Below, in pieces: positions 2,366 through 34,297 of a DNA stretch of 34,297 bases. Position 1 is the first letter of the stretch. The number at the start of each line of letters is the position of its first letter. The DNA is taken from positions 1 through 34,297 of the IMG/VR virus record IMGVR_UViG_3300025853_000316; one strand, 5' to 3'. The translations under genes were made by a program, and so were the position numbers. Origin of the DNA: a virus. Below the pieces are notes generated by a model that saw nothing but the letters and a program-made list of their open reading frames with translations, did no database searches and was not told where the DNA came from.

Positions 2366-2397
2366 GCTATAATTACCTCGTTTTTGACTCACTCTTA

Positions 2398-2621: not shown

Positions 2622-2638
2622 AAACTGTTTTCCTTTTA

Positions 2639-2673: not shown

Positions 2674-2674
2674 A

Positions 2675-3325: not shown

Positions 3326-3342
3326 ATGATTCACCTGTCTTT

Positions 3343-3509: not shown

Positions 3510-3541
3510 GCTTACTCCTGTTTCCGTGTTTGTATGCAGCA

Positions 3542-3570
3542 ATAATGCGCTTTAATTATGCGCATGTCAA
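3542..3570 (-). promoter_or_regulatory. Leftward early promoter (PL-like)
   Basis: On the minus strand a perfect -35 TTGACA (plus bases 3565-3570) is followed after 17 bases by CATTAT (3542-3547; four of six match TATAAT). It is the nearest promoter to the RHH gene start at 3509. Two direct copies of AATWATGCGC (3541-3550 and 3554-3563) lie between the boxes and could be operator half-sites. The second merges into the palindrome ATGCGCAT. Confidence 0.6.
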
Positions 3571-8402: not shown

Positions 8403-8980
8403 TACGCCCCCTTAATGCTCGCCTTAACCGCCTGTAGTTCTGCGGTAAGCGCGTTAATCACGCCTGTGTTGTCTTCGTCATCCACCAGCAAGCCCTTAGC
8501 GTGACTGCATCGCTGCTCAATCTTGCTGAGATAGAACTCAAAAGTAAGCTTGTTGTTCATAATGCTGTCAGCCTTGGCTTGCACCTTGGCCCAACCAGCA
8601 GCATCTATGGTGGCGACCTCTGCGGATATCTGGGCCAGTGTTAGCGGGGAGCTACCGTTAACTACCTCAACGATCTTGGCTAAAAGATATTTTTGCTCAT
8701 CGTCTGCATTGCCTGCGATATAGGCTTTTGCCGCTTCACCCTTTACCGGGAACGTGTTTATTTCTTCCTGGCTGTATCCGTTTTGCAGAGTATGCATAGC
8801 GTCTTTGTACAGAAATGCTATTTTTTCCTCGCATAACGATAGTGGTAGAACCCACGCACCGTTGATGTAAATCTGCTTCGCGTCATCAGGCGGGTTATCT
8901 ACCTCAATATACCCAGCCGGGGCGGCGGAATCGTCATACGCCCCTAAATACACGCCATTTCCATCAATTAAGTATTTCAA
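8402..8980 (-). CDS. Tail fibre-associated / fibre assembly-like protein (192 aa)
   Basis: A TTG start at 8980 is preferred: it overlaps the fibre stop (TTGA) and has GGAGG seven bases upstream, while the ATG at 9007 has no site. The N-terminus (KYLIDGNGVYLGAYDDSAAP...YINGAWVLP) resembles the variable front of fibre assembly proteins. The rest is helical, ending in a coil. The position directly after the fibre gene supports a chaperone or fibre-tip role; this is inferred. Confidence 0.6.
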   Translation of the reverse strand: MKYLIDGNGVYLGAYDDSAAPAGYIEVDNPPDDAKQIYINGAWVLPLSLCEEKIAFLYKDAMHTLQNGYSQEEINTFPVKGEAAKAYIAGNADDEQKYLLAKIVEVVNGSSPLTLAQISAEVATIDAAGWAKVQAKADSIMNNKLTFEFYLSKIEQRCSHAKGLLVDDEDNTGVINALTAELQAVKASIKGA

Positions 8981-16087: not shown

Positions 16088-16536
16088 TATCGACCCCCAA
16101 AACCAGTAAGCAGAGTCCCGACAGCGCCAACTCGGCCGGCCTTTTGCGCTTGTTTGCCTTCAAATAGACGGGCTTGACTTCCGGCAGCAGCGCCAAACTG
16201 GATGTTTAGCGCCTCCTCTTCGGCCTCTTGTGCGGTCTGTTTCATGACCTCAAGCACCGAGCCAGTACGCCGGACGCCCGACTTAGCAAAGCCTGTTTTC
16301 TGCCTCGCCAATGTGCGCTGTTTTTCTCTATCCAGCGCCTGAAGATCTAAGTCTTTCTGACGCTGGATTAAATCAGACTCTTGCTTGGCAACATCTAAAG
16401 CCGCATCGCCAGCTTGAAGTTGAGCGCCTGCTTGAATGATAGGCGCAGCTACGGAAGCAACATTAGCAACTGTAGAGCCAATGCTTGATGCGCTAGAAAA
16501 TATATCTGCAATTGCCTTACCACACATATCAGTCAT
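16087..16536 (-). CDS. Internal virion protein, T7 gp14-like (149 aa)
   Basis: This small protein has a cysteine near the start (MTDMCGKA), a Ser/Ala-rich hydrophobic N-terminal segment (about 10-40), a basic coiled coil (about 55-85) and the motif SGVRRTGSVLEV, which is characteristic of the gp14-like internal virion family in podoviruses. In T7, gp14 forms the outer-membrane part of the ejection channel. The gene lies right after the tail nozzle gene and overlaps it by eight bases, as in related genomes. Confidence 0.75.
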   Translation of the reverse strand: MTDMCGKAIADIFSSASSIGSTVANVASVAAPIIQAGAQLQAGDAALDVAKQESDLIQRQKDLDLQALDREKQRTLARQKTGFAKSGVRRTGSVLEVMKQTAQEAEEEALNIQFGAAAGSQARLFEGKQAQKAGRVGAVGTLLTGFGGR

Positions 16537-18571
16537 TCGTCCTTAGCTTCGGCATTATCGCCAGAACCGTCATAGGTAGCGGCTGATCCTGCCTAATAAA
16601 TATTCTGCCTTCTGTTTCATATCCTGAATTAAAGGCAATCTTTTTGTCACCAGTGAACCGGGGCGGTGCTTGGTTCATTTCATCCGCAGAGGTTCTGAAA
16701 GGTATTATATCAAGCTTATCGGCATTCGGCCCAACCTGCGCCCCCAATGTGTCAAAGAAGCGGATGGATATATCGCTGATGCGCTTTATCTTCCCCTGCG
16801 CCGTTCCGTTAGCCGACCCCGCCTCTATCCTCATCGTCTCCAAATCAGACACATAACCAAGACCGACGCTTATTTTTGACGCCGGAGTAGTTAGTGTTAC
16901 AGACCCATTATTAACAACCTGATCCGGCAGCACAGCCCCGTCCGCAAGTATTTGAACAGTCTCGCCTTCAAGGTGAGCCAGCCCACTAACAAAAGTTTCT
17001 GCAGGGCCAGAATAAAAAACGCCAGAGTCCACAAAGTAGTCATCGCCGTCAACAGGGTTTATATTGTCGCGGCCCTTCTCGATTATCTCTATCTGCCTCT
17101 GCACACCGCCATCAACGAAGCGTTTAACAGATAGCCACACCTCATCTCTGTCGCTGCCAGGAATTACACCGACGCTTTCTACCTGCGCCGTTGCGCCCTG
17201 TGCATCACTTACACCACCAAGCGTATGTCGATGCCAGCCAATAACCTCCTGATCTCGCTCAAAGGTGACGCCAATCAATGCGCCGTCCTCGCGAACCATC
17301 CACACAATGGAGTCAGGCTCTCTCTGATAATCCATCTCAACAATACCTTTCCCGGTAATATGCTCAGATAGCAGGGTTAAATCAGGGGCTATATACGTGT
17401 CAGATTCGAACTGGTAGATAAACTGTCTTAGCTTTCGGCCAGTACGTTGAAGGAATAGCACGACACCATTGGATCTAACAGGCTGCACATATGCGCCACC
17501 GTACTCAGACTGGCGCACAATCTTAACGTTTGTCGGCGTAATAGCCTCATCCCGGGTTGATGCAGACATTAAGAACTCTCCGCCAACAGTCCCGATAGTT
17601 AATGACTTACCAGGCGACAGCCAGCGAATAGCGTTTACCTGATCCGAAGCAATCGTGTAAATAAACGAATCTGACGCCTCTACACCTATACTGAAGTCGT
17701 TATATATCCCTGACTGAGACCCCCATATTGTTTGCGGGTCTAATGGAGTTCCGGCGTAACAAATCCGGTCTTCATAGAATGCCGCCGTTGCTGGGTATCC
17801 AGTGGTCTCGCTAAACGCACCTAGCCGCCAAGTTTTCTCGGCACCCACAGACACAAAATCATCCTTTACAAGCGCGGTCACTGAAGTGGCTGATCCGAAA
17901 ACGGTTATTTCCGCATATCCAAAGTCTGCGCCCTCGTCAATACGAACTAGTCGGCCCACGTCAGTAGAAACAAATACGTCAGCCGATGCGGTGATGGTTA
18001 TTGTGCCCGTCGTCCCGCTAGGGTTTAAAGTCGTATCTGTGGTGTTCTCATCAAGCCAGGGGCCGTTTACAAACTCCTCATCATCCAAGCTGAACGAATC
18101 AACAGCAGTGCGGGATAGCTTTGCTGGCGGATGATTAGGGTGCACGATGTAAAGAATGTCGGCGGATTGTATGAACTGAATTTCGAATAATTCAGATTCA
18201 AGATATGTAGTTGCCAGCTCAACGGCATTAGCTACCTGAGAAAAGCCATTAGAAAACCCATTGGAGAAGCCGCCACCACCAATCAGCGCCCGGTCACGAT
18301 AAAACCGAATATAGTTCTCGCCAAACTCAAGCATATACGCCTGCTCAACAGAGAACTGAAAAGGGATTAAGCGAATCTTTTTATCATTCGTCTTGGCGTT
18401 TGATATATGCAGAGTACCGCCGCGCCGGGTTGCGCCACCGTGGGTATGAATAATCATATCCTTTAACGTGCGAACACCGTTGTAATACTTCGATATATCC
18501 ACTCGCCCCTCTAATCGAGGAGACAACTCACCGGCCGTAAAGTTTGTTTGTATTGCTGCAGCTCTTGGCAT
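16529..18571 (-). CDS. Tail tubular protein B (nozzle, gp12-like)
   Basis: The N-terminus (MPRAAAIQTNFTAGELSPRLEGRVDISKYYNG, followed by GGATRRGGT) is the hallmark of podovirus gp12-like nozzle proteins, and its length of 680 residues is close to the usual size. The protein is beta-rich. It should form the distal tail tube and fibre-binding platform. It follows the gp11-like adaptor by two bases, with GAGG before the ATG. Confidence 0.92.
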   Translation of the reverse strand: MPRAAAIQTNFTAGELSPRLEGRVDISKYYNGVRTLKDMIIHTHGGATRRGGTLHISNAKTNDKKIRLIPFQFSVEQAYMLEFGENYIRFYRDRALIGGGGFSNGFSNGFSQVANAVELATTYLESELFEIQFIQSADILYIVHPNHPPAKLSRTAVDSFSLDDEEFVNGPWLDENTTDTTLNPSGTTGTITITASADVFVSTDVGRLVRIDEGADFGYAEITVFGSATSVTALVKDDFVSVGAEKTWRLGAFSETTGYPATAAFYEDRICYAGTPLDPQTIWGSQSGIYNDFSIGVEASDSFIYTIASDQVNAIRWLSPGKSLTIGTVGGEFLMSASTRDEAITPTNVKIVRQSEYGGAYVQPVRSNGVVLFLQRTGRKLRQFIYQFESDTYIAPDLTLLSEHITGKGIVEMDYQREPDSIVWMVREDGALIGVTFERDQEVIGWHRHTLGGVSDAQGATAQVESVGVIPGSDRDEVWLSVKRFVDGGVQRQIEIIEKGRDNINPVDGDDYFVDSGVFYSGPAETFVSGLAHLEGETVQILADGAVLPDQVVNNGSVTLTTPASKISVGLGYVSDLETMRIEAGSANGTAQGKIKRISDISIRFFDTLGAQVGPNADKLDIIPFRTSADEMNQAPPRFTGDKKIAFNSGYETEGRIFIRQDQPLPMTVLAIMPKLRTND

Positions 18572-18573
18572 AC

Positions 18574-19131
18574 TTATAGCCTCGTATTAAGCCACTGGTC
18601 AGCTTCAACGCTGCGCGGCACACCTTCCTGCCCATCCATTGAGCGTGCCTGCCTGATACGGCTCAAGGCCTTCTGCTCCATGATCTGGACTAGCTGAGTG
18701 TTATCGGCAAGATTGTAAGCTAAATACGCACCAATGCGATCCGAAAGCGCCTCGACAAACAGAGAATCAAACATGGTTGTATCTTCAACGCGGGAAATAT
18801 ACTCAATCTTCACTGAGTCGGAGTTAACCAGCAGGGATTTACCCTCGATGCGATACGGCGAAAGGTCGTCATCAGTGCGCAAAACCTTCAAGCAGTCAGA
18901 AGGAAGCTGAAACTGCGCATCAAATTCAAAGATTGGATCAGTGGTTAACCGGGCAAGCTGAGCGCGCTTTATCGCAAAATTCCACGGATGCTCTCTAAGC
19001 ATCGTATCGCGCAAGTCAGCATAGATTTGATTGCATAACCTGGCGGCTTTTGAGTTCTCAGTGAGATCGATAATCGTGTCTTCACCAATCTTGATCAGCG
19101 CCTTGTTACATATGTCTACTGTAGAGGCCAT
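18574..19131 (-). CDS. Tail tubular protein A (adaptor, gp11-like)
   Basis: The 185-residue protein matches gp11-like adaptors: MASTVDICNKALIKIGEDTI at the start, the LREHPWNFAIKRAQL block (about 45-59) and the C-terminal helix VEALSDRIGAYLAYNLADN. These form a dodecameric ring under the portal. It is the first gene after the UUCG-loop terminator at 19144-19163, so part of its transcription is probably read-through. A GGGTGA ribosome site precedes the ATG. Confidence 0.92.
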   Translation of the reverse strand: MASTVDICNKALIKIGEDTIIDLTENSKAARLCNQIYADLRDTMLREHPWNFAIKRAQLARLTTDPIFEFDAQFQLPSDCLKVLRTDDDLSPYRIEGKSLLVNSDSVKIEYISRVEDTTMFDSLFVEALSDRIGAYLAYNLADNTQLVQIMEQKALSRIRQARSMDGQEGVPRSVEADQWLNTRL

Positions 19132-19143
19132 TTATCACCCATT

Positions 19144-19163
19144 AAAAAAGGGGCCGAAGCCCC
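19144..19163 (-). terminator. UUCG-loop intrinsic terminator after the capsid block
   Basis: In the leftward RNA the sequence is GGGGC-UUCG-GCCCC followed by six U (plus-strand A-run 19144-19149). The stem is perfect and capped by the extra-stable UUCG tetraloop. It sits between the head accessory gene and the tail adaptor gene, so it would lower tail gene expression relative to capsid. Confidence 0.93.
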
Positions 19164-19207
19164 TCCCGCCCGAAGGCTAACCAGCGGTAAGGGGCCGCAG
19201 GGTTCTG

Positions 19208-19711
19208 TTAATCGAGAGTGTAAAACAGCTCGATTGTCATCGTTCCGCCAACGTTAACATCAGCATCCGCCAGCGTAATCTTGATATCAAGATCCGCTTT
19301 AGGGTCTTCTGTCTGGCCGTTGACATGCTCCCATAGACGCTTGCCGTAGTTGGCAATATCCTTGATTACAGCAGTGTCAGTCACTGTTGCAGCGTCAATG
19401 CCATCATTCAGCGCGTCCGGGTCGTCAGTGATATTTGTCTTGCCGGTGCGGTTGAACACACCGATATCCAGAGTTGGAGCGCCAGCCGATGCCAGATCAT
19501 CTGTATAAAGCTTAGACGCACCTAAGATACGCGCATTAGATGGCAAACGAGCCATCAGGTATGTGGAGGTTGCAGAGTCAGCCGCACCGACCTCCACTGT
19601 TTCCACCCATGAGCGTACAGCGCCGTCACCGATGCCAGGGCCGCCTAGCTCAACGGGATCTGCCGCAAGGCCGGTCATAATCAGTGAGCCGTTCAAGTTT
19701 ACAATAGCCAT
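19208..19711 (-). CDS. Head-associated structural protein (167 aa)
   Basis: The protein is acidic and beta-rich (SWVETVEVGAADSATSTYLMARLPSNARILGASKLYTDD), with a terminal strand TMTIELFYTLD. It has the usual look and place of a head decoration or accessory protein encoded just after the major capsid protein in podoviruses. A full AGGAGG ribosome site suggests abundant translation. The exact family was not identified. It lies upstream of the UUCG terminator, so it shares the capsid gene's high transcription. Confidence 0.65.
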   Translation of the reverse strand: MAIVNLNGSLIMTGLAADPVELGGPGIGDGAVRSWVETVEVGAADSATSTYLMARLPSNARILGASKLYTDDLASAGAPTLDIGVFNRTGKTNITDDPDALNDGIDAATVTDTAVIKDIANYGKRLWEHVNGQTEDPKADLDIKITLADADVNVGGTMTIELFYTLD

Positions 19712-19726
19712 CTTTATGACCTCCTA

Positions 19727-20590
19727 TTAAGCTTCAGAACAAGCGATTTCAACAACTTTGTCTTCTTCCATGCGGGTTGCGCCGAAGTCTTCGGAACGGA
19801 ATACCTGCACAGAGTAAGACTTATCAGGCCGCTCAGTAACTCGTGTAATATTGTTAGTGCCCTGAGCCAGCAACAGGCCGTCTTCAGCCCATGCAATAAC
19901 CTGACGGTCACCGCTACCGTCGGTAGTCAGTCGCTCAGTACGAACAAACATGAAGCCCATGTATTCGTTAATCTTGCCTTCAACCAGTGCTTTCACGGTG
20001 TTGAAATCTGAACTGGTGATTTCGGTAGATTCCAGCAAGTCTGTCAGCTGCTTAGACGTGATTGCCATATAGCGACGGATATCAGGGTCTACATCATTGC
20101 CGTTCAGGATCTCAGCCGCAGAACGCAGCTTATCAATGGTCAGGCCGGTACCGCCAACAGGAACCTTTTGACTAGAAGGCAGAACAACGTTAGTTGTACC
20201 TTTCTTGCCGGTACGCGCAGTACCCAGAGCCGCTTCAATGATAATATCATCACGGCTACGGTTCATTGCCATCATGGCAGACCTGGCATAGGTAGAGGTT
20301 GGGTCGATCAGCATCCGCACCTTATCCGCCTGGTCAATCAGGTCAGCCCACTCAAAGGTGGACATAGTGACTGCACGGCGAGCGTGTGGAGTGTCAACGC
20401 GTGGAGTATCGGAGTGGCGAGAGGTACGCTCGATTGCTGCAGTAGCACCAACCTGCTCATAAAAACCAGTCTCACCGGTTTGTGATTCCATCCGCAATTT
20501 ATTCATGAAGCGGCAATCTTTCTGCTGTGACAGCAGGTCGATGTTTGCACCGAATTGGTTTACAAACGCCGTGGTAATTTCAAAGCTCAT
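19727..20590 (-). CDS. Major capsid protein
   Basis: The start at 20590 (MSFEITTAFVNQFGANIDLLSQQ) has AAGGGG six bases upstream; the longer frame from 20611 runs through that site. The 287-residue product is the major capsid protein by its position between scaffold and tail adaptor. It also fits the P22-coat-like podovirus pattern of an N-terminal helix, a mixed alpha/beta body (TRTSRHSDTPRVDTPHARRA loop, DLIDQADKVRMLIDPTS) and a C-terminal SYSVQVFRSEDFGATRMEE strand set. It should adopt the HK97 fold. The 188-bp leader contains a stable RNA hairpin. Confidence 0.85.
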   Translation of the reverse strand: MSFEITTAFVNQFGANIDLLSQQKDCRFMNKLRMESQTGETGFYEQVGATAAIERTSRHSDTPRVDTPHARRAVTMSTFEWADLIDQADKVRMLIDPTSTYARSAMMAMNRSRDDIIIEAALGTARTGKKGTTNVVLPSSQKVPVGGTGLTIDKLRSAAEILNGNDVDPDIRRYMAITSKQLTDLLESTEITSSDFNTVKALVEGKINEYMGFMFVRTERLTTDGSGDRQVIAWAEDGLLLAQGTNNITRVTERPDKSYSVQVFRSEDFGATRMEEDKVVEIACSEA

Positions 20591-20710
20591 AACAAGCCCC
20601 TTATTAAACAAAAGTTAAGTTTTGTCTAGCTTGCGGGGTTGTCGTTTCCGGTCCCTTATCACTAGATGTATCAGCAAAAGGTTCCGGCCCTGAAAGGGTT
20701 GTCGGAGGGT

Positions 20711-20747
20711 AGTGGCTAAGGGCGACAGCATGAAGCCCCCAACCACT
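20711..20747 (-). other. Stable RNA hairpin in the capsid gene leader
   Basis: In the leftward RNA AGUGGUUGGGGGC pairs with GCCCUUAGCCACU over 13 continuous pairs (three of them G-U), around an 11-base loop. On the plus strand three of the same positions are mismatches, which indicates selection on the leftward RNA. No U-tract follows. It may be an RNA processing or stability element between the scaffold and capsid messages. Confidence 0.6.
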
Positions 20748-20778
20748 GATTGACAGTATAGCGCTATCTCAGAAAGGT

Positions 20779-21609
20779 TCAACCGTACTGCAGCTTAAAT
20801 GAGTCCTGCACACGGCGCATAATTTGCTGGTGCTCGGGGTGGCGTTTATCCATATACGCAGGATGAGCCATTAAGCTATTGCGCTCGTCTTCAATCTCTT
20901 GCGGCGTCTTAGCTTGCTCAGAGCCTACACCCTCAAGCTTACCGCTTTCCATCATAGACTTGCCGATATTACCAAACATGCGAGCCAATACAGGATGGTC
21001 TGCCAGCTTAACGCCATTGACTGTATTCTCTTGCAGGAACTTAACATCTGCCTCGCTGGCAAACTCAGTTACAGCCCGGTTAGCGATCTGCACATTCTGC
21101 TCAAACGCATTGCCCCACTCAGCTTTAAGCGCTGCAATCTGCTCGTTAGTGGCCGCCTCAGTTGCTCCGGCCTGAGCCTCACCCCGTGCTTGCTGATCAG
21201 AGAAGTACCAGTCGGTTAACTTCGACATTTGCTGCTGATTAAGGCCGACGCTATGCGCAATATCCTTAAACGCACCCTGGGCTTGCTCATCAATTTCGAA
21301 GCCTTCCGGAGCTGAAATCTCATAGGCTGCCGCTTCTTCAGGACGGCCAAGGCGAGCATATGTGTTTGACCAATCATCATCAGTCTGCGGCATTGGAATC
21401 TTGTCAGCACCGATTAAACGCTGGGCGTTCTGCCAGGACTTAGCCATAGTTTCGACAGAATCAAACTTGGTAATATTCTGGTCTTCGCGCATCTCTTGCG
21501 GCAGAGAGTCATACCAGTTGCCACCCTCGGCTGGAGCCTCTGCAACTGGCGCGCCGCCGCCCGCTTCGCCTGGTTCATCGTTCATCAATACAAATTTAAA
21601 TCGGTTCAT
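20779..21609 (-). CDS. Capsid assembly scaffolding protein
   Basis: The 276-residue protein is acidic and Ala/Glu/Gln-rich, with an unstructured N-terminus (GEAGGGAPVAEAPAEGG). A central block (WYDSLPQEMREDQNITKFDS...LIGADKIPMPQTDDDW) follows, seen in many podovirus scaffolds, and then a helical C-terminus with basic residues (RRVQDSFKLQYG) that may touch the coat protein. It lies directly upstream of the capsid gene. An alternative start at M9 is possible. Confidence 0.85.
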   Translation of the reverse strand: MNRFKFVLMNDEPGEAGGGAPVAEAPAEGGNWYDSLPQEMREDQNITKFDSVETMAKSWQNAQRLIGADKIPMPQTDDDWSNTYARLGRPEEAAAYEISAPEGFEIDEQAQGAFKDIAHSVGLNQQQMSKLTDWYFSDQQARGEAQAGATEAATNEQIAALKAEWGNAFEQNVQIANRAVTEFASEADVKFLQENTVNGVKLADHPVLARMFGNIGKSMMESGKLEGVGSEQAKTPQEIEDERNSLMAHPAYMDKRHPEHQQIMRRVQDSFKLQYG

Positions 21610-21854
21610 TGCTTAGCCCCTTCTGCTGTTTCAATGAAGTTTTTTTCATTCCAGTTTAATTTCTGGAGGATGGTCATGCCGGCGTCGCGCCGACCCTCAC
21701 GGATCAGCACGGCGTTAGTCTCAATAGAGCCGGTCAGCGGCTCAAGCACATGACAGTAAGCAAGAATATCCTCTAGCACTCGCTGACCCTGCTCAGTGCC
21801 AAACACTTGTTTATAGTCGATATGCAGCTGCTGCTCTGCTGTTTTATTTGGCAT
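21606..21854 (-). CDS. Bbp19-like small phage protein (82 aa)
   Basis: The start at 21854 (MPNKTAEQQLHIDYKQVFG) overlaps the preceding stop by 11 bases, with AAGG upstream. The FGTEQGQRVLEDILAYCHV and EGRRDAGMTILQKL blocks are typical of Bbp19-type proteins, which occur between portal and scaffold genes in many podoviruses. The function is not established; a structural or assembly role is likely from position. The ATGA-type overlap with the scaffold gene indicates coupled translation. Confidence 0.75.
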   Translation of the reverse strand: MPNKTAEQQLHIDYKQVFGTEQGQRVLEDILAYCHVLEPLTGSIETNAVLIREGRRDAGMTILQKLNWNEKNFIETAEGAKQ

Positions 21855-22038
21855 TTCGAGCCGCCTTCTTTGGCTTTTCTTCAACCGGCTTAGCCAGCTC
21901 GATAGTCGGCGCTAAATACTCTACATGACGTTCTGAGCATTTTAGCTGATTACAGCGAACCATAGTGTTTTCTTTGTGATACTGCATAAGGCTGCCGCAT
22001 TCGCCGCAATGAATCTGAGCTTGAATAATTGCTTTCAT
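21844..22038 (-). CDS. Small zinc-ribbon-like protein (64 aa)
   Basis: Cysteines are arranged as C11-x2-C14 and C29-x4-C34 (HCGECGSLM and VRCNQLKCSE), compatible with one zinc site, followed by a lysine-rich tail (EEKPKKAARNAK). It lies between the portal and the Bbp19-like gene, two bases after the portal stop. Its function is unknown. A short zinc ribbon with a basic tail would suit nucleic-acid or head protein contact; this is inference. Confidence 0.7.
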   Translation of the reverse strand: MKAIIQAQIHCGECGSLMQYHKENTMVRCNQLKCSERHVEYLAPTIELAKPVEEKPKKAARNAK

Positions 22039-22040
22039 GA

Positions 22041-23630
22041 TTAACCACCCCCTTCAGTGGCTTGGTTGATTGCTTGCCCCGCTTCACCGGCCTGCTGAGC
22101 CGCCGCTAAGGCTGTTTGTAACTGCTGAATCTGCTGCCTTTGCTGGCGCTGCACATCTCTGCCTTTCTCTTCAGACAACTTATCCATGCCTACACCAAAC
22201 ATTTGTAAGGTATCACGAACAAGCACGTCGCCATTAACGTTGTCAGTTAGCAGTTCAGGCTGTAATTGTAGCATAGGTGAGACAGATTCAACCGCCCTTA
22301 AAAACCCTGCCGCTTCCTGCTGCTGCTGGGCCTGTGCAACTGAGCCTGTAAATTCAAACTCAAACTTTTCAGGGATGGATTCTGGCGGCTGGCCGAAGCG
22401 ACCTTGACGCAGCAAGATACCAAATACCCTGTCTAGCACAGGCCCCAAGTATTCAGACTGCACACGACCAAGCACCGGACCCATTAGGCGCAGCTTTTCC
22501 TCTGTGCGCTGCAATACTTCAGTGGCAGTCATTTGCGGACCACCAGCCAACTGAAGCTGATCAACAAAGAAGATGGATCGAATCTTGTCCTCAAGGAACT
22601 GCACAAAGTCTAAACCAATACCAGGGTTAGCAGATGGCAATTGGCCGACAGCTCCAGCAGCGTCACTTCCATCAAACACGTTAACACCGCCGGGGACTGT
22701 TCGCAGCGGATTCATAAAGCCGTCGTTAGTCACAACTAGAGGCGGATCTACAGACTTTTGAGCCGCCTTGATGGTGGTTTTCATCACCTCATTAAGCATC
22801 TTAATATCAGGAAGCGCCGTCATAGCCGGTGACCGACCATATGTTTCCATTGGAGATTTATAGAATCGACCTACAGGTAATGGCATTTCCTGAAATCCGC
22901 CTTCCTCAAGCACGGCCTTATCCTGCTGAAGAACGTAAACAGACTCTATCGGCATCCCTTCAAAATTGCGCTTGCCTTCCTTCACATCCTTTCGAGGCTG
23001 GATGCAGTGAATAATAAACAGCTTCTCATTAAACTTGTCAGCCTTAATTAAATCAGCAACAGTCTTACTATTGTGATCCGGCCACCGCTGCTCTATCTGC
23101 TTAGCCGTCCATTCAAAGCGGCGGTAAACAGTATCAACCTGCCCGTCCGGGTTTTCAGCTATAACAATTTCAGATAACGAGCGGGATTGAAAAGACAGCC
23201 CGGCCTTGCTTTCATTCTCATCAATGAATACCCCAGCTGTACCAAATGCGCCGAACTCTAAGAAGTACTCATATGACGAAGTGTAGAAGTTGCTGGCAGG
23301 CGCGTTAATCTCTTCAAGCATGATATCAGAGGCATTATCAAGCCAGCGCTTAGCCTCTTCATCCATGCCCTCTGTGTTAGCCTTAAACCAAGTAGTGGCC
23401 GGGTTGACGTTTAGCGAAACAAGACCAGAGGCTAGCAGCTCATTAGCCTGGATCGGTGTCGAATTAAACACCTTGGTCATGCGCTTTTCACCAGGAGAGC
23501 GCTTGGTATCAAAGTCATCGCGGCGAGGGTAAACAAGCTCGGCAACTTCGCGCCAATGGCTATCCCACGTCCCTCGGTCAGACTTCAGCTTTTCATATCG
23601 CTTTACTATCTGTTCAGCATCAACAGCCAT
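22041..23630 (-). CDS. Portal protein (podovirus head-tail connector)
   Basis: The 529-residue protein belongs to the head-tail connector family of T7-like and related podoviruses: YEKLKSDRGTWDSHWREVAE and LVYPRRDDF near the start, TKVFNSTPIQANELLASGL (about 50-70), the stem-region GLDFVQFLEDKIRSIFFVDQ, and MTATEVLQRTEEKLRLMGP. A Gln/Ala-rich tail follows (QRQQRQQIQQLQTALAAAQQ). It forms the dodecameric vertex for DNA entry. It is flanked by the Gly/Ala-rich head protein gene and the zinc-ribbon gene. Confidence 0.96.
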   Translation of the reverse strand: MAVDAEQIVKRYEKLKSDRGTWDSHWREVAELVYPRRDDFDTKRSPGEKRMTKVFNSTPIQANELLASGLVSLNVNPATTWFKANTEGMDEEAKRWLDNASDIMLEEINAPASNFYTSSYEYFLEFGAFGTAGVFIDENESKAGLSFQSRSLSEIVIAENPDGQVDTVYRRFEWTAKQIEQRWPDHNSKTVADLIKADKFNEKLFIIHCIQPRKDVKEGKRNFEGMPIESVYVLQQDKAVLEEGGFQEMPLPVGRFYKSPMETYGRSPAMTALPDIKMLNEVMKTTIKAAQKSVDPPLVVTNDGFMNPLRTVPGGVNVFDGSDAAGAVGQLPSANPGIGLDFVQFLEDKIRSIFFVDQLQLAGGPQMTATEVLQRTEEKLRLMGPVLGRVQSEYLGPVLDRVFGILLRQGRFGQPPESIPEKFEFEFTGSVAQAQQQQEAAGFLRAVESVSPMLQLQPELLTDNVNGDVLVRDTLQMFGVGMDKLSEEKGRDVQRQQRQQIQQLQTALAAAQQAGEAGQAINQATEGGG

Positions 23631-23631
23631 A

Positions 23632-24102
23632 TCACTGCCCTAATAATGTTTTTCGTTGCTCTTTGGCAATAGATCTGCCCGCCAGTATAGTGCTGCGCCG
23701 CCCACTAGAAGCCGCGCGCCTTGTATCTTCTGCTGCTGCTGTAGCAGGATCTACCGCAGCAGTAGTGGCAGCTGAAGTAGTGGCCGTATCACCAGCACTC
23801 AAGATACCCTTGGCCCGAATGACTCCGCGACCGCCCCTAGATGGGTCGTCAAGGCCCACGCCAGGGCCGCCCGGATTGGTATCCAAGTCAGCAAGAGCAC
23901 CAGCGAGAGCACCAAACACCCCCCCTAAAGGGCCGGTAACCTTACCTAAAGTTTTTGCGGCCGTCTTCCCTGCTTCACGGGTCTCGCCAAACTCACCCGT
24001 TGGATCGCCTGGGCCGGCTTTAGCAGCCTTGTCCTGCGCCTCTAGCCTGCCTACAGCAGCGGAGCGCCCGCCAGCTGAACCACCTCTATCTCCACCGCAC
24101 AT
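23632..24102 (-). CDS. Gly/Ala-rich structural protein upstream of the portal (156 aa)
   Basis: The protein begins MCGGDRGGSAGGRSAAVG, has a Gly/Pro-rich centre with a short hydrophobic helix (GGVFGALAGALADL), and ends in RRSTILAGRSIAKEQRKTLLGQ. A Cys-Gly-Gly start and a KTLLG end are typical of small proteins encoded beside portals in podovirus genomes, where they are annotated as head or tail proteins of unknown role. The stop lies one base before the portal ATG. Confidence 0.7.
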   Translation of the reverse strand: MCGGDRGGSAGGRSAAVGRLEAQDKAAKAGPGDPTGEFGETREAGKTAAKTLGKVTGPLGGVFGALAGALADLDTNPGGPGVGLDDPSRGGRGVIRAKGILSAGDTATTSAATTAAVDPATAAAEDTRRAASSGRRSTILAGRSIAKEQRKTLLGQ

Positions 24103-24106
24103 AATA

Positions 24107-24556
24107 TTACCCTTTGTTTAGTATTACGCCTGACTCAACAAAGCCCATGCGCTTGTATAGTTCTACAGCGCTATCACCGGAATCGCCAGTGGTAACGCCA
24201 ACGGAAATCTGATCCTCTCGCACACCGCAGCAGATAGACCAGTCAATAAATGTCTTAACCAGCTTAAATGCATGGCTTCCGCCTCGATTCTCGGGACGGA
24301 CATACAAAAGCAAGTCAAAGGACTTAAGTGTTGGCCCAAAGTAATGTTCCTGAATCATACCAAAGAACATACCTACAACCTTGCCATTCACCTCAGACAC
24401 CCAAGCCTGCATGTGCGGCTGTTGAATTAGGTTAACACACAGCTGCGCAACCTTTGCCGGGCACCACTCAGTCACCGCGTAGCTAGAATTGCTGTACATA
24501 TCATACCCCATTTCAAGAATCGCCGGGATATCGTTACCATTAAGCTCTCTAATCAT
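24107..24556 (-). CDS. GNAT-family N-acetyltransferase
   Basis: The 149-residue enzyme has the GNAT fold: GNDIPAILEMG at the N-terminus, the beta4 strand KSFDLLLYVRPENRGG leading into the acetyl-CoA-binding loop (R-x2-G-type RPENRGGSHAFKLV), and the C-terminal YKRMGFVESG motif. The substrate is unknown. GNAT genes near the terminase and portal recur in podoviruses, suggesting a conserved role in modifying a virion or host protein; this is inferred from context. Confidence 0.88.
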   Translation of the reverse strand: MIRELNGNDIPAILEMGYDMYSNSSYAVTEWCPAKVAQLCVNLIQQPHMQAWVSEVNGKVVGMFFGMIQEHYFGPTLKSFDLLLYVRPENRGGSHAFKLVKTFIDWSICCGVREDQISVGVTTGDSGDSAVELYKRMGFVESGVILNKG

Positions 24557-24565
24557 ACCAGCCCC

Positions 24566-24664
24566 TTACCAGTTGAATAATAGCCACATTCCAAACGCGC
24601 CGAACGCATAGGCTGCAAAGTAAAGCGCGCACATTCCAATTTTTTTAAAGGCTGAACGGGTCAT
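24566..24664 (-). CDS. 32-residue single-pass membrane peptide
   Basis: The translation begins MTRSAFKKIGMCALYFAAYA and ends FGAFGMWLLFNW: three basic residues, then one strongly hydrophobic helix rich in aromatics. Its ATG lies inside the last codons of the terminase gene and is preceded by GGAGGAG with a four-base spacer, a very strong site. The hydrophobic run would have the N-terminus in the cytoplasm. The role is unknown; membrane peptides like this could aid lysis or timing. Confidence 0.65.
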   Translation of the reverse strand: MTRSAFKKIGMCALYFAAYAFGAFGMWLLFNW

Positions 24665-26123
24665 ATTGCTCCTCCGAGTGCTGAACAAATCGTCTCTCTT
24701 GCGTCCGCTGTTTAACCTTAGGCTTCCACATGGTCATCATTACAGAGTCGCCCATGTTAGGCGATGATATCTGTAGCTTAGCCATATCCTGCTTGCTCAT
24801 AATTTGAATCAAGCCGCCCGGATTCGGCTTAGTGGGTATACGGCACAACTCAGACCGTAGCGCCGCCATGTTCTCTATGCCCTCAGAGCTAAAGCTAATC
24901 ATCTCATCAACGTCGCAATACTCGCCCTTAACGACCACCCGATAAGTGTTATAGCAGCGATCCGCTAAGTCAGTATAGTACTGTGACCGGTTATTCTTAA
25001 ACGTCTCTGCATATGTTAGCTGATCTTCGCCTGGAACATTCCTTTCTTTCAGGTAAATATCGTCCGCATTATCCTGCCCGCTACCAGAGTGCGACCCCTT
25101 GAACATATGCCACTTAACCCGCGTTCCTTCAAAGGCGTCAGCTATCTGCCGCTTTAAGCCGGTACCCATGCCGTCACCGTCCCACAAGAACCAATCAACG
25201 CGCTGCTTATGAGACAAGTCACATGCCCAGTCGCATTTATCATCTATCTCGCCTTCATCCTTTTCCTTCACGCATTCAATAATTGATCCGTGTCGAATAG
25301 CAAAGCCGGCTGAGTCATTACCGGAGTCGGATGGATCATGCGCAGCTACTACTGCCCCCCTTGGCTTAAATAGCGCCTTCAGGTTTGGCTTAAGGTGAGC
25401 ATCAATGCAGGCATCAAACCATTCAGCCTTGATGATTGACCCGTCAACCTCGTCGTTGTACTTGCCTTCCCAGATCCAGTCATACTTAGCCCGCGGCAAG
25501 TTCTCTTTGTCCCATACACGAAGCTTTTCAGATTCTTCGCTATGCCAGGGGTTGTCTCGCCAGTTAATAACTATGATCAGATGAAGATCATCCTCATAGA
25601 TTCCGTCTCGGTCTAAGTATTTCTGATACGGAACAATAAAACGCTGGGAAAACGGGTCCGCTGATGACTGGGGGTTAGCACCAAACCAGCACTCAGCCCC
25701 AGGGTTACGCAGGATAGTAGGCAGCAGCTTATCAATACTTGCCTGACTCATCGTGTGGGCTTCTTCGAACCAGCTGTACTTGTAGCCCTGAGCAGACTGG
25801 ATAGAGTCCGGGTTGCGTGCGGCCCCTTTATACTTGGTTACAGCCCCGTTAGGAGCCTGTACCCGGTCATTAGTGACTGACCAACCCTCTAGCTTAAGTC
25901 GCTCCTGTATCGAGCCTATAAACACCCGGTGCACAGAGTCAGCAATAGAGTCCTGAAACTCTCGCAAGCAATATATATCAGCGGCCTCTGTGGCCATCTT
26001 CATAGTGAGCATGTCACCAAAGCCAATAGACTTGCCTGAAGATCGACCACCGATAGCGACTTTGATCTGTTTGCGAGTCGTTAAGAACTTCTCTAGCTTA
26101 CGATTTACTTTCAGGTGTGGCAT
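24645..26123 (-). CDS. terL: Terminase large subunit (PBSX-like)
   Basis: The 492-residue protein has the packaging ATPase motif GGRSSGKS (25-32) with Walker B YSWFEEAH (116-123). The coupling motif is likely in WFGANPQSS (146-154). A nuclease domain follows, with acidic residues at D263 (AAHDPSDSGNDSAG), D315/D317 (WDGDGMG) and a C-terminal MGDS. The domain order and the AIGGRSSGKS form match PBSX-type terminases. These usually go with headful packaging, which agrees with the circularly closing contig. It overlaps the small subunit gene by 26 bases. Confidence 0.96.
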   Translation of the reverse strand: MPHLKVNRKLEKFLTTRKQIKVAIGGRSSGKSIGFGDMLTMKMATEAADIYCLREFQDSIADSVHRVFIGSIQERLKLEGWSVTNDRVQAPNGAVTKYKGAARNPDSIQSAQGYKYSWFEEAHTMSQASIDKLLPTILRNPGAECWFGANPQSSADPFSQRFIVPYQKYLDRDGIYEDDLHLIIVINWRDNPWHSEESEKLRVWDKENLPRAKYDWIWEGKYNDEVDGSIIKAEWFDACIDAHLKPNLKALFKPRGAVVAAHDPSDSGNDSAGFAIRHGSIIECVKEKDEGEIDDKCDWACDLSHKQRVDWFLWDGDGMGTGLKRQIADAFEGTRVKWHMFKGSHSGSGQDNADDIYLKERNVPGEDQLTYAETFKNNRSQYYTDLADRCYNTYRVVVKGEYCDVDEMISFSSEGIENMAALRSELCRIPTKPNPGGLIQIMSKQDMAKLQISSPNMGDSVMMTMWKPKVKQRTQERRFVQHSEEQYDPFSL

Positions 26124-26487
26124 TTACAAACTCTACCTTCCAGTTGCTGTCTATATCGTCAGGCTTATCACTATGGTCAATCGTCTCCTGCTTATCAGAC
26201 CACCCATGCCGGTTCTTCATGTTCATATACCAGCCGGTGTAACTAAAGTCCTTGTTCTCGAGATTCTTCCTGCCTTTTCTTTCCCACCAAGCCCTTGACA
26301 AAGCCTCTCCGCGCTTTATGGCTTCGGAAAACTCTGGATTAACTTCAGGCTTTTGCCACTCACAAAGAGTATCAATATGGATATCAAGCTCTGCGGCTAC
26401 CTCGTATTTAGAAGCACCATCTTTCATTAGCTCTAATACTACATCGCACATTTCTGGCTCGTATTTTGTAGGTCTTCCGCCCGGCAT
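26098..26487 (-). CDS. terS: Terminase small subunit
   Basis: The start at 26487 (MPGGRPTKYEPEMCDVVLEL) is used because AAGGAG lies seven bases before it; the frame is open further upstream through the stop of the preceding gene. The N-terminal domain (GASKYEVAAELDIHIDTLCEW) is the usual HTH that recognises the packaging site, and EFSEAIKRGEALSRAWWERKG is a familiar small-terminase block. At 129 residues it is of ordinary length. It lies directly upstream of the large subunit. Confidence 0.92.
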   Translation of the reverse strand: MPGGRPTKYEPEMCDVVLELMKDGASKYEVAAELDIHIDTLCEWQKPEVNPEFSEAIKRGEALSRAWWERKGRKNLENKDFSYTGWYMNMKNRHGWSDKQETIDHSDKPDDIDSNWKVEFVNATPESKS

Positions 26488-26488
26488 A

Positions 26489-26770
26489 CTAAGACTCCTT
26501 AATATCAAGCACTACTGGCGCGGCCTTAGAATGCTTGTTGTCGTATATGTCGGTATTTACTTCCTTGCATTGGACAGCCTTAATCGCCTCTATGAAAACC
26601 AGAAATTCCTCAAAACTCCGTTCGCTTTGATCTTCGCTCTCTAAGAATCTCCGGTGCTCCTTTTCTACGTTAAAAATTTTTGCGGCGACATAAGCGCCTT
26701 TTATTTCATAGTCAGAATAATCACCGCCAGTAAAAACTAGCAATTGACCTTTTGTGATGCTCTCAGCCAT
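26489..26770 (-). CDS. Hypothetical protein upstream of terminase (93 aa)
   Basis: The product begins MAESITKGQLLVFTGGDYSD and is acidic, with mixed alpha/beta character and no motif I recognise. GGGGG precedes the ATG. It is spaced one base from the terminase small subunit start, so the genes are co-translated. The TKGQLLVFTGGDYSDYEI opening looks like a small beta-barrel or SH3-like fold, which is only a visual impression. Confidence 0.7.
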   Translation of the reverse strand: MAESITKGQLLVFTGGDYSDYEIKGAYVAAKIFNVEKEHRRFLESEDQSERSFEEFLVFIEAIKAVQCKEVNTDIYDNKHSKAAPVVLDIKES

Positions 26771-29936: not shown

Positions 29937-30062
29937 TTATTGGTTAACTGGCCACACTACAGTCATAGATACCCTTACCGGACATCTGCGCTTTAATATG
30001 GCCTTGATCATAATCAGTAATCTTTTATCACAAACCCAATACAGTCCTAGTAGCTGGGTCAT
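29937..30062 (-). CDS. Small basic-hydrophobic protein (41 aa, tentative)
   Basis: The product begins MTQLLGLYWVCDKRLLIMIK and continues with a basic stretch (ILKRRCPVRV) and a short hydrophobic end (SMTVVWPVNQ). The stop lies just before the strong ribosome site of the next gene. Its own site (AGAG, short spacer) is weak, and the region has many inverted repeats, so the frame may be non-coding. The two cysteines and positive charge hint at a membrane- or nucleic-acid-associated peptide. Confidence 0.4.
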   Translation of the reverse strand: MTQLLGLYWVCDKRLLIMIKAILKRRCPVRVSMTVVWPVNQ

Positions 30063-30155
30063 ACTCTCTGCTGTGTCCGGTATAAGGTGTGTTTATCCCC
30101 TTCTACGGCTGTCAGGGGCGGTCGGTATCAAACCCGGATCACTGATTATGTTTTG

Positions 30156-30183: not shown

Positions 30184-30203
30184 CTTTGACCGTAAAACCG
30201 CGG
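30161..30203. repeat. Two overlapping inverted repeats
   Basis: CCGCGGT (30174-30180) pairs with ACCGCGG (30197-30203) and, in competition, AAAGTTT (30161-30167) pairs with AAACTTT (30181-30187). Each is perfect over seven bases, but they interleave, so only one can form in RNA at a time. They lie upstream of and across the -35 of the candidate late promoter. Confidence 0.6.
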
Positions 30204-30236
30204 GAGTGTGGAGAGATCTTAGAAAGGTTCGGACAT

Positions 30237-30332
30237 AAAAAAAGGCTGCTTAGAGTAACCCCAGAACTTGGAAGGGGCTGTTTCAGAACTGGCGTCTTAA
30301 TCACCCGGACTGAAGTTACTCTAAATAGCCTT
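30237..30332 (-). ncRNA. Junction-type structured RNA ending in a U-tract terminator
   Basis: In the leftward RNA the ends AAGGCU and UAGAGUAAC (plus 30327-30332 and 30315-30323) pair with GUUACUCUA and AGCCUU (30251-30259 and 30242-30247). Together they form an 18-bp closing stem with about one mismatch and one wobble. Inside lie a UUCAG/CUGAA arm with a nested GGUG/CGCC hairpin (about 30282-30314) and a CCCC/GGGG hairpin (about 30258-30276), giving a three-way junction. Seven U follow the stem (A-run 30237-30243). It could be a small RNA, an attenuator or a riboswitch-like terminator; the family was not recognised. Confidence 0.6.
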
Positions 30333-30397
30333 AACCAGTTCTATCAAACAATTTTCTAAAGACGCTTCCACACGCCTACTACACAACTAATTTTAAA

Positions 30398-30583
30398 CTA
30401 ATCCTCCTGCTTATCAAGCCCTTTGGCAAACCCGTTCAAGTCGTCTACCGCATTTCTAAGACGCTCAATCTCTTCATCAATACCCTTAACCCTCTCTTTA
30501 TGAAATTCACGCTGCATAAATAAAGCCAAGGCTAATACAGCAGATAAAAACGCCCAAAACTGCCAGTAACTAAACAATTCCAT
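30398..30583 (-). CDS. Small membrane-anchored coiled-coil protein (61 aa)
   Basis: The ATG at 30583 follows the preceding stop by four bases with AGGTGGTGAG upstream; earlier GTG codons overlap that gene. The N-terminus has one hydrophobic helix (FWAFLSAVLALALFM, about 8-22) and the rest is a charged coil (EEIERLRNAVDDLNGFAKGL). The layout resembles spanin- or lysis-associated proteins, but it lies in the early arm; the function is unknown. It is the last gene before the structured intergenic region. Confidence 0.65.
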   Translation of the reverse strand: MELFSYWQFWAFLSAVLALALFMQREFHKERVKGIDEEIERLRNAVDDLNGFAKGLDKQED

Positions 30584-31411: not shown

Positions 31412-32059
31412 TTAGTTAGGTGCCCCGGACCCATCTACCAGAACCGCATCGCGCAGGTTGGCATCGCGCAGGTTGGCATCGCACAGGACGGCACCGCGCA
31501 GGTTGGCACCCCACAGGTCGGCATCGCGCAGGTCGGCATCGCACAGGTTGGCACGGCACAGGTCGGCACCCCGCAGGTCGGCACCCCGCAGGTTGACACC
31601 GCGCAGGTCGGCACCGCGCAGGTCGGCACCGCGCAGGGTGGCACGGCACAGGTCGGCACCCCGCAGGTTGGCACCGCGCAGGTTGGCATCGCACAGGTTG
31701 GCATCGCACAGGTTGGCATCGCACAGGTCGGCATAGCGCAGGTTGGCACCGCGCAGGTTGGCATCGCACAGGTTGGCATCGCACAGGTCGGCATCGCGCA
31801 GGTTGGCATAGCGCAGGTTGGCATAGCGCAGGTTGGCACCGCGCAGGTTGGCACCGCGCAGGTCGGCATCGCGCAGGTTGGCACCCCGCAGGACGGCACC
31901 GCGCAGGTCGGCACCGCGCAGGTCGGCACCCCGCAGGTTGACACCGCGCAGGTTGACACCGCGCAGGTCGGCACCGCGCAGGTCGGCACGGCAGCCGCCG
32001 TCTTCACCGTTAAGCCACTTATTATGCAGCTCTAATACTTCTTTAATATCAATATTCAT
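31412..32059 (-). CDS. Pentapeptide-repeat protein (37 tandem repeats)
   Basis: After a 24-residue helical lead ([20 protein letters not shown]), 37 uninterrupted pentapeptides of the form A-[DN]-L-[RC]-[GD] run to residue 209, with a six-residue tail. Every repeat has Leu at the central position. Such proteins fold as a right-handed quadrilateral beta-helix, here about nine coils. The Qnr and MfpA members mimic DNA and protect gyrase, but those are strongly acidic, while this one has Arg at most i+1 positions, so its partner may differ. Cysteine replaces Arg in nine repeats, clustered on two faces. GGTGAG precedes the ATG. The GC content is far above that of neighbours. Confidence 0.9.
31435..31992. 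repeat. 15-bp tandem repeat array in the pentapeptide gene
   Basis: On the plus strand the unit is close to GCGCAGGTCGGCACC, repeated about 37 times with changes at a few positions (GCGCA or GCACA; TCGG or TTGG). The unit is a multiple of three bases and contains no stops in several frames, so false reading frames run through it on both strands. Confidence 0.9.
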
Positions 32060-32446: not shown

Positions 32447-32836
32447 TTAATTTAAAGTTTTTTGCAGATCGTTTGCGAGCTTGTTGTAGTGGGCCTCGAC
32501 CTTCTCAGCTTTGGTAAAGCTTGCTATGGAGAATTCAATGAACTCCTCACCTTTCTTCACATCCACTTTTTCCAGCGTCATACGGTAAATATCTTTGTCG
32601 TCAAACCCGTATTTCTTTTGCAGGCAGTCAACAAAGCACTTAACCGGGTTGTCTATGTCCGCTCTTTTGTTGCTTAGGCCGAATCTCAGGCTCACTGAAA
32701 GCTTTTCTTCTGGGATTGATATGCTGGGAAGGATCATAATTACATCGCGCTCATAGCGGCTGTAAGAAGCTGTTTTGAATCTGCGCCCTTTCCAGGCTTC
32801 GTTAACAGATAGAGGCTTAATCGGTATGCGGTTCAT
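32447..32836 (-). CDS. rusA: RusA-like Holliday-junction resolvase
   Basis: The 129-residue enzyme has the RusA active site pattern: KRADIDNPVKCFVDCL with D60, D62 and K66, and a second acidic cluster at D79/D80/D82 (YGFDDKDIY). The length is near that of RusA (120). It should cleave four-way junctions during recombination and packaging, as the nin-region resolvases of lambdoid phages do. The start overlaps the preceding gene by four bases (ATGA). Confidence 0.93.
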   Translation of the reverse strand: MNRIPIKPLSVNEAWKGRRFKTASYSRYERDVIMILPSISIPEEKLSVSLRFGLSNKRADIDNPVKCFVDCLQKKYGFDDKDIYRMTLEKVDVKKGEEFIEFSIASFTKAEKVEAHYNKLANDLQKTLN

Positions 32837-33150
32837 TTCATCCCCTCGATTTTAATTACACCCATCTCAACCAGCTTGCGCCAGGTTCTCACCATAGCCC
32901 GCCGCATGTAGTTTTCTTTGTCTGCTGGTTCCAGATAATGCTTTACCCGGCCATCGATTACAGAGTGGCAGTTATCACAGGCAAAGCAGGCGCTGATATC
33001 GTCAGACTTACGCCCCATTCCGTGGCTTTCATCCGGTAGGTGGGCCAGCACTACTGTGCTTGTGTCGTAGCTGCATACGCCTACGATCTGGAGGGTGCAT
33101 TGCTGGCCTCTGGCCGCGTCTCTGACTTTCTTCGATACGATCTTAAGCAT
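32833..33150 (-). CDS. YbcO-like DUF1364 putative nuclease
   Basis: The 105-residue protein matches the YbcO/DUF1364 family: ARGQQCTLQIVGVCSYDTST, LAHLPDESHGMGRKSDD (about 36-52) and CFACDNCHSVIDGRV (55-69). The cysteines (C55, C58, C61) and histidines (H37, H62) form an HNH-like zinc site. A structural-genomics model suggests a nuclease-like fold, but activity is not established. It is encoded between DUF1367 and RusA, the usual lambdoid nin neighbourhood, with eight- and four-base overlaps. Confidence 0.85.
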   Translation of the reverse strand: MLKIVSKKVRDAARGQQCTLQIVGVCSYDTSTVVLAHLPDESHGMGRKSDDISACFACDNCHSVIDGRVKHYLEPADKENYMRRAMVRTWRKLVEMGVIKIEGMK

Positions 33151-33616
33151 ATTCCATCATCCCATTTACTACCCTTTCCATTTCGCTCTCTGTCCAGCCC
33201 TGAACATGGCGCATTACCATCTTCCAGAGAACGCTAAATGCTGCCCGGTATAGCTCCTCAAACTGTGCATCATCCATGTTCCCAAAACTGATTGACTTGG
33301 GTACCAGCTGCACATCGCCCTTGAGGTTCGACACCACATCATAAAACCCGGCCATTACCGTCACGTCGCTACGGAACTTTTCGAAATTCTTTTCTGTAGT
33401 ACGGCCCTTGTACTCACCCTTTGGCGGCTCCCAGTACTCATAAGCCATATTCAAAAGTGAGAAGAATTTGCGGTGAAACTTGATGTTTCTAGCCTTCACC
33501 AGATCCGCCCGTATCTCCTGACCTGTTCGCAGAGACTGAATATACTCCAACCCCTGCTGATCTACAGGCACAAGGGTGTTGTGATTACCCTTGCGCAGTA
33601 TTACCTGTTTACTCAC
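33143..33616 (-). CDS. DUF1367 phage protein (157 aa)
   Basis: The start is the GTG at 33616, which overlaps the preceding stop (GTGA) and has GGAGGT six bases upstream; the longer frame from 33691 runs through the previous gene. The conserved blocks ADLVKARNIKFHRKFFSLLN (about 37-56), YEYWEPPKGEYKG and VPKSISFGNMDDAQFEELYR match DUF1367, a lambdoid nin-region family of unknown function. It is coupled to the YbcO-like nuclease gene, which hints at a shared process. Confidence 0.85.
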   Translation of the reverse strand: MSKQVILRKGNHNTLVPVDQQGLEYIQSLRTGQEIRADLVKARNIKFHRKFFSLLNMAYEYWEPPKGEYKGRTTEKNFEKFRSDVTVMAGFYDVVSNLKGDVQLVPKSISFGNMDDAQFEELYRAAFSVLWKMVMRHVQGWTESEMERVVNGMMEYA

Positions 33617-33792
33617 TGCCACACCTCCGCCAGTTCCTTTTCCATTCTCCGCGCTTCCTGGTGATCCTCTACCGTTCTGCGCCGATAGCATTCACGCTTC
33701 TTTTCCGGCGATATCTCTTTAGGGATTACTACACGCTCTGGGTTAGTGATTACGAATTTGTGCTTGTATTCCGGGGCTGATGTAATGCTCAT
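33613..33792 (-). CDS. Small hypothetical protein (59 aa)
   Basis: The ATG at 33792 overlaps the previous stop (TAATG) and has AAGGGGG upstream. The product is basic (MSITSAPEYKHKFVITNPER...KKRECYRRRTVEDHQEARRM), ending in a charged helix. The function is unknown. Its two overlaps place it firmly in the early operon. Confidence 0.7.
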   Translation of the reverse strand: MSITSAPEYKHKFVITNPERVVIPKEISPEKKRECYRRRTVEDHQEARRMEKELAEVWQ

Positions 33793-34151
33793 TACTCTGC
33801 CCCCTTCATCATCAGGTAGCAGATGGCTGCGCACCGCAGTAATTCATCATGCCGGGCGGAACATTTAGCGGATTCATTAAAGTAACTGCTTACATGTACT
33901 TGGCATGTATCAAAGCTGTATTGGATGCAGTTTTTAATCATAATCGGACCCATCTGCTCCCATTCTCCGGTGTAGTCGTAACACTCTTGGCGCCACCAAT
34001 CATCCGTAAACTCTGGCGCCCACTCGAACAAGGCACTTCCACCATCGCACTCTTTAATCATATCATCAGGGTGTTTTGCCAGCTCCGGATGCTCAAGCAT
34101 AGCCACCAGCACGTTTAGCTCAAAGTTTGTCTTTTCGGTTAAGTTAGTCAC
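33792..34151 (-). CDS. NinX-like protein (DUF2591)
   Basis: The 119-residue protein resembles DUF2591/NinX of lambdoid phages: FELNVLVAML near the start, YTGEWEQMGPIMIKNCIQYSF in the centre and the C-terminal LRCAAICYLMMKG helix. In this copy the start is GTG, with AAGGGG seven bases upstream; the left-end copy reads ATG. The role of the family is unknown. It is the first gene after dnaB. Confidence 0.7.
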   Translation of the reverse strand: MTNLTEKTNFELNVLVAMLEHPELAKHPDDMIKECDGGSALFEWAPEFTDDWWRQECYDYTGEWEQMGPIMIKNCIQYSFDTCQVHVSSYFNESAKCSARHDELLRCAAICYLMMKGAE

Positions 34152-34297
34152 CTTCTATCCCCTTCTACAAATTAAATCCGCGACGCTGCGGCTTTGGTTT
34201 TTCAATTACTGGCAATGGCCCGTCAAATACTGCAAACCGGTTTTCTGCACCGATAAAGTTTAGAAAATCAGTACCCTTTTCGCCGTCTCGAAACTTG
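34121..34297. repeat. Terminal overlap, right copy
   Basis: This stretch repeats bases 1-177 with C at 34151 (T at 31) and A at 34270 (C at 150). The frames of the DUF2591 gene and dnaB continue across the join. Removing one copy leaves about 34,120 bases. Confidence 0.95.
34165..34297 (-). CDS. dnaB: 3' end of dnaB, partial copy at contig end
   Basis: The stop at 34165-34167 corresponds to 45-47 at the left end. The segment encodes the last 43 residues of the helicase (ending PQRRGFNL). The single substitution in this part is silent. It is not a second gene but the overlap of a circular map. Confidence 0.9.
   Translation of the reverse strand, partial: KFRDGEKGTDFLNFIGAENRFAVFDGPLPVIEKPKPQRRGFNL

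Follow-up and report, generated by a model that had tools for sequence, protein, structure and literature searches.

The window analysed here is the virus contig IMGVR_UViG_3300025853_000316, from an uncultured marine phage, over its full length of 34,297 nt. The ends of the record overlap (positions 1-177 against 34121-34297, 98.9% match), and contig L166 bridges them, the left part being continuous with the right part, which confirms the order DnaB-NinX. Therefore, the phage genome is circularly permuted or circular, and it is complete or nearly so. Its layout is lambda-like. The leftward early genes encode an antirepressor, a DnaD/O-like protein, DnaB and, across the record ends, NinX, NinB, YbcO, RusA, an HTH protein and small genes, while a rightward early block holds exonuclease, Gam and SSB. 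The leftward order continues past the element described below with the ANAH gene, PAPS reductase, small genes, terminase, portal and tail genes, such that the element sits between the DnaB-nin-RusA early block and the ANAH-PAPS reductase-...-terminase-portal operon. The closest portal is that of Pelagibacter phage HTVC010P, at 44%, and the genome is a mosaic in which an HTVC010P-like portal and structural module (8402-26508) is joined to lambda-like early and nin modules (45-3334 and 32447-34151). Neither an integrase nor a CI-type repressor was recognised in the window, and it contains no tRNA or tmRNA. A pentapeptide-repeat gene lies at 31412-32059; owing to its short DNA repeats, several of the other frames are open over long distances too.

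At the early/late boundary, the minus strand specifies a stable hairpin followed directly by a U-rich tract, the anatomy of an intrinsic terminator (Table 1). The closing stem, P1, has 22 pairs (8 G-C, 3 G-U) around one A-C mismatch, and the hairpin is the sole one of its kind in the 34-kb window; no other comes close. A reading made from the letters of the window, called here the sequence-only reading, had described an 18-bp closing stem ending in seven U. The hairpin and the U tract are real, but the stem is longer than was thought. The two inner arms of the proposed three-way junction were not clearly predicted: in the minimum free energy (MFE) fold and the near-optimal folds, there is a single weak inner arm, bulged by 7 nt on its 3' side. 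The MFE of the hairpin is -35.1 kcal/mol, compared to -21.6 +/- 3.0 for dinucleotide shuffles (z -4.5, 0/300), with P1 alone at -27.2 kcal/mol and the inner arm contributing about -7.8. When arbitrary flanks are added (30225-30375), z drops to -1.3, and the folding signal is thus that of the hairpin itself. A DNA palindrome or mobile element was set aside as first choice: the minus strand folds better than the plus strand, it alone carries the U tract, and inspection by eye showed no target-site duplication. The element is thus a predicted terminator at the early/late boundary, well supported as anatomy.

Table 1. Features of the element and its flanks, in window coordinates
Feature	Positions	Strand	Pairing, basis or remark
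Promoter-like site TTGATA-16-TAAAAT	30390-30417	-	10/12 consensus matches; predicted start near 30383
Outer arm, 5' side	30367-30376	-	pairs with 30203-30212; inverted repeat I4, 9/10
Upstream word A, GCGUCUU	30359-30365	-	perfectly complementary to 30292-30298; could be chance (P 0.08)
Upstream word S1, AGAACUGG	30335-30342	-	2 nt before the closing stem; perfectly complementary to 30285-30292
P1 closing stem, 5' arm	30310-30332	-	pairs with 30242-30264
Apical part, 45 nt, one weak inner arm	30265-30309	-	RNAfold MFE and suboptimal folds
Apical word A', AAGACGC	30292-30298	-	partner of 30359-30365
Apical word S1', CCAGUUCU	30285-30292	-	partner of 30335-30342
Third related word AGUUCU	30263-30268	-	6 bp with 30337-30342; likely chance
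P1 closing stem, 3' arm	30242-30264	-	pairs with 30310-30332
U7 tract, predicted 3' end of terminated RNA	30237-30243	-	sequence
Outer arm, 3' side	30203-30212	-	downstream of the U tract; only in read-through RNA

The natural flanks can prolong the helix outward, with z -4.6 for 30203-30376 and P about 0.01-0.02 for the flank pairing. This extension has modest support, and the outer helix would form solely in read-through RNA. Promoters were called by eye or by consensus scan, and the evidence for the promoter-like site is weak because, taken together, promoter-like matches in this region are no commoner than chance predicts. Two interleaved inverted repeats lie between the terminator and the ANAH gene, at 30009-30022/30137-30150 and 29978-29984/30074-30080 (CATAATCAGTAATC and CCGGACA), and the minus strand of 30005-30152, which holds them, folds with z -3.8.

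The 8-bp complementarity of S1 to S1' and the 7-bp complementarity of word A to A' are both exactly as the sequence-only reading had claimed, and the third related word is present too. The chance of such complementarity is P = 0.02 for the 8-mer and P = 0.08 for the 7-mer; for both in the observed arrangement it is P = 0.0007, a post hoc figure. The element has complementarity to its apical part of 8 upstream and 4 downstream. A 14-nt apical word has three matches in the window at up to three mismatches, one of them itself, versus 2.6 expected. The duplex energies are -10.5 kcal/mol for S1 and -8.8 kcal/mol for word A, comparable to that of the inner arm, and alternative folds can therefore compete. 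Given that the partner of each upstream word lies in the apical part of the terminator, either pairing would make a pseudoknot and need not open the closing stem. The claim of competing folds is supported indirectly, in that other long-stem terminators of phages share complementarity between upstream and apical words, and these words covary where several members exist.

No diverged homologue of the element was found by DNA among phages, plasmids and viral contigs, and the sole relative of the intergenic region is identical DNA in IMGVR_3300006810_009323. Approaching through the neighbouring genes gave no diverged relative of the element at 80 loci each for PAPS reductase, terminase and RusA; the 135-aa protein returned itself alone, and ANAH returned itself and one weak match. 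The closest terminase relatives, L087 and L088, have different early modules without such an element. Strict and relaxed Rfam searches returned nothing relevant in the window element or in the related loci tested, a HOTTIP match at E = 2 being set aside as chance.

Elements of the same build were sought with a descriptor that joins a P1 ended by a U tract to an S1 upstream of it that can pair with the apical part over at least 7 nt. The window element, with a P1 of 22 pairs, an S1 of 8 and a gap of 2 nt, falls within it. The descriptor was written after the first examples had been seen, and a second set of loci and a permutation test serve as the independent checks. The first set consisted of 241 to 245 loci that had been fetched for their proteins and was scanned for long hairpins ended by a U tract; an energy-based listing of terminators over all loci was too noisy to use. 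The few stems of at least 18 pairs carried, on reading, an upstream word complementary to an apical word, for example GTCGAAA/TTTCGAC in L110, CTAGAAC/GTTCTAG in L144 and GGCAGACAAA/TTTGTCTGCC in L040. A P1 of at least 18 with an S1 of at least 7 gave 8 matches in 2.26 Mb not selected for RNA, window included, versus 0 in four shuffled sets, and lowering P1 to at least 16 gave 11 versus 0.75 in shuffles. As a control, 10 distinct hairpins with a P1 of at least 18 were picked regardless of S1, and an S1 of at least 7 was found upstream in 8 of the 10 and downstream (60 nt) in 3 of the 10. Because the downstream control is not empty, what can be concluded for the single window element stays modest.

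The second, independent set was made up of 80 loci fetched with a DnaT/O-like replication protein. A P1 of at least 13 with an S1 of at least 8 gave 53 matches versus 2.75 in shuffled sequence, with homologues counted separately. In most of these loci, an RNA of this build lies some hundreds of bases ahead of the replication gene, with a sigma70-like promoter sequence (TTGACA/TATAAT-like) just upstream, judged by eye. The elements of the class mostly precede replication operons, not late operons. The window element precedes ANAH, PAPS reductase and the late genes rather than a replication operon; an element in L008 also precedes PAPS reductase, followed by replication genes, and the elements of L175, L213, L183, L229 and L230 lie downstream of RusA and before replication-type genes. 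The short elements at L175:4098-4151, L213:2083-2134, L229:1849-1904 and L230:8012-8061 are similar to one another, belong to another phage group and have a TAnnTTTG-like promoter sequence; L229 and L230 share an open frame that starts MKK(L/F)INSKR and runs through the element.

Covariation of S1 with S1' was seen in six other sequence types, several of them unrelated, namely I, II, III, L037/L040, L213/L175 and L229/L230. The RNA of type I (L246-L325, for example L006:2902-3058 and L251:3577-3733) is about 155 nt long; a replication gene lies downstream of it, and in many cases a Cro-like gene precedes it. A conserved stretch, AATGCGGTACGTCGCTGGCTT..., occurs in L006 and L007 just downstream of the type I terminator. 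The 30 aligned type I RNAs have 25 distinct S1 words, and their S1 columns are 47-55% identical, compared to 87-92% for the hairpin arms. The match of each S1 to its own S1' averages 9.67 nt (minimum 6), more than in any of 10,000 permutations, and with foreign partners the average is 4.62; loci within one type are not independent of each other. At the sensitivity of the search, no type I RNA turned up in the collections of annotated phages and plasmids. In type II, the word pairs are GTAGGAA/TTCCTAC and GTGAGAA/TTCTCAC. The type III RNA is nearly constant, and in it GCTGACCC/GGGTCAGC, GCCGACAC/GTGTCGGC and GATTGCCCC/GGGGCAATC replace one another; its members are L287, L290, L291, L295, L302, L305, L306 and L324 (about 3420-3560 or equivalent), with S1 in the loop of a 5' hairpin. 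Given that S1 is extremely variable in a constant frame, the word pair is suggested to be a specificity tag, perhaps read between RNA copies. Regulation through S1 and S1' is supported for the class by this covariation and would by extension apply to the window element.

The window element could be no more than a strong terminator of the usual kind for the early (nin) transcript, with complementarities due to chance and an apical part that is filler. The hairpin and the U tract suffice for termination, the probabilities of the two words taken singly are as given above, and no homologue shows conservation. However, a 22-bp stem and a 45-nt apical part are not needed for termination, and the other hairpins of the same build nearly all carry an S1. 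This explanation is judged somewhat unlikely.

It is unlikely that the element is a trans-acting RNA for immunity or self-recognition, in which the terminated RNA of one phage copy would offer S1' (or S1) to the transcript growing on another copy and force its termination. By analogy, the closest precedent for ending transcription ahead of replication genes by means of complementary words on one strand is the CI RNA immunity of P4, in which words upstream of and inside a structured RNA (seqA, seqB and seqC) bring about early termination (PMC4825925). That S1 of the related elements is far more variable than the rest and still complementary is as expected of a specificity word, and most of these elements stand directly before replication operons, much as P4 blocks its replication genes through RNA-induced termination (PMC4825925). 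In contrast, P4 has targets on both sides, and the window element has an upstream target only; the downstream seqC has no counterpart in the window, no third or further S1 copy was found in type I loci, and the window element is not before replication genes. The CI RNA is also made by processing, and the P4 region has no P1 ended by a U tract with an S1 at the threshold used for listing. The c4 antisense RNA of P1 and P7 likewise uses short complementary words, which are placed in loops (PMC12197685), and the window phage, like P1 and P7, has an ant gene (2675-3334). But c4 acts on the ant mRNA, whereas the partner word of the window element lies in the same leader. No match to c4 (RF01695) was found in Rfam at the gathering score in the window and 15 related loci, and the window element had none even when E was allowed to rise to 5.

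The element might also be a late leader of the lambda or P22 type, in which a promoter near 30400 (pR') is followed by a terminator (tR') that is ignored by means of a Q-like protein bound at the promoter, and the fold is passive. The pR'-tR' region, which gives a 6S-type leader RNA, is like the window in that a short leader with an intrinsic terminator lies after the nin genes and before the late genes. The P22 interval from gene 23 to the holin gene holds P late, qut and t late, and the order of promoter, terminator and first late gene in the window is as in P22. The promoter-like site matches 10 of 12 consensus positions, but as a sigma70 promoter just upstream of the terminator, TTGATA-16-TAAAAT is not beyond chance. 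The genes tested gave no match to Q, N or other antiterminator families in Pfam, PHROGs or NCBIfam, no other trans factor was identified, and no Q-type gene was found just upstream of the element, although the window phage may possibly encode an unrecognised Q. The stem in the window is also much longer than that of lambda and P22, its apical part is structured, and a search of lambda and P22 regions with the same thresholds gave no S1-S1' complementarity. A late leader of this type is quite improbable. The sequence-only reading had placed the element where late transcription must be controlled and likened it to an antitermination site; the early/late position stands, but the late antitermination site has no positive evidence, with no Q or N family found and with related elements that mostly precede replication operons. 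The put RNA of HK022 acts in cis on termination from a place close to the beginning of an early transcript; it consists of two adjacent hairpins, without a terminator of its own, that act on RNA polymerase with no need of a phage protein. An effect on termination is the known feature of put, and for the window element it is predicted. The regions searched in P4, lambda, P22, N15 and HK022 gave no descriptor match at the threshold used for listing.

A processing site in double-stranded RNA, at which RNase III would cut the 22-bp stem to leave a stable small RNA or to control decay of the early mRNA, is very improbable, for while the length of the stem suits RNase III and the wider 174-nt fold is strong, the U tract and the S1 words would be left unexplained.

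Since it has no further S1 copy, as opposed to P4, no Rfam match, as opposed to c4, and no Q that could be found, as opposed to lambda, the window element is filed as a probable singleton of the S1/P1 class, a placement made from its build, with the covariation counted in other types. The best explanation, which stands at about an even chance, is that the window element is an intrinsic terminator in which a long-range pairing of S1 with S1' tunes termination before the late operon. S1 would pair with S1' of the terminator hairpin, resulting in a pseudoknotted or kissing RNA. On the emerging RNA, this pairing may be the earliest to form and may hold the 5' arm of P1; it could be made or broken by a ribosome, by a protein, or by a second RNA copy that supplies S1'. 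Making or breaking the pairing would tune how often the polymerase stops at U7, such that the late genes would be expressed only when the switch allows.

The recurrence of this layout in many unrelated phages, outside Rfam, suggests an unrecognised kind of phage RNA switch, as compared to the literature in the open part of PubMed Central. A broader proposal, tentative and held at rather less than an even chance, is that numerous uncultured phages possess promoter-driven RNAs of an unrecognised class, whose hypervariable upstream word and apical complement would act as a phage-specific lock on termination before replication genes, or here before late genes. This would amount to RNA-based self-recognition or immunity of another kind than P4 CI and c4. 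Phage-type specificity could naturally reside in the hypervariable word pair of the related elements. Should the S1-S1' pairing work, it would allow for purely RNA-based timing of replication and late genes in phages without a recognisable Q, N or CI.
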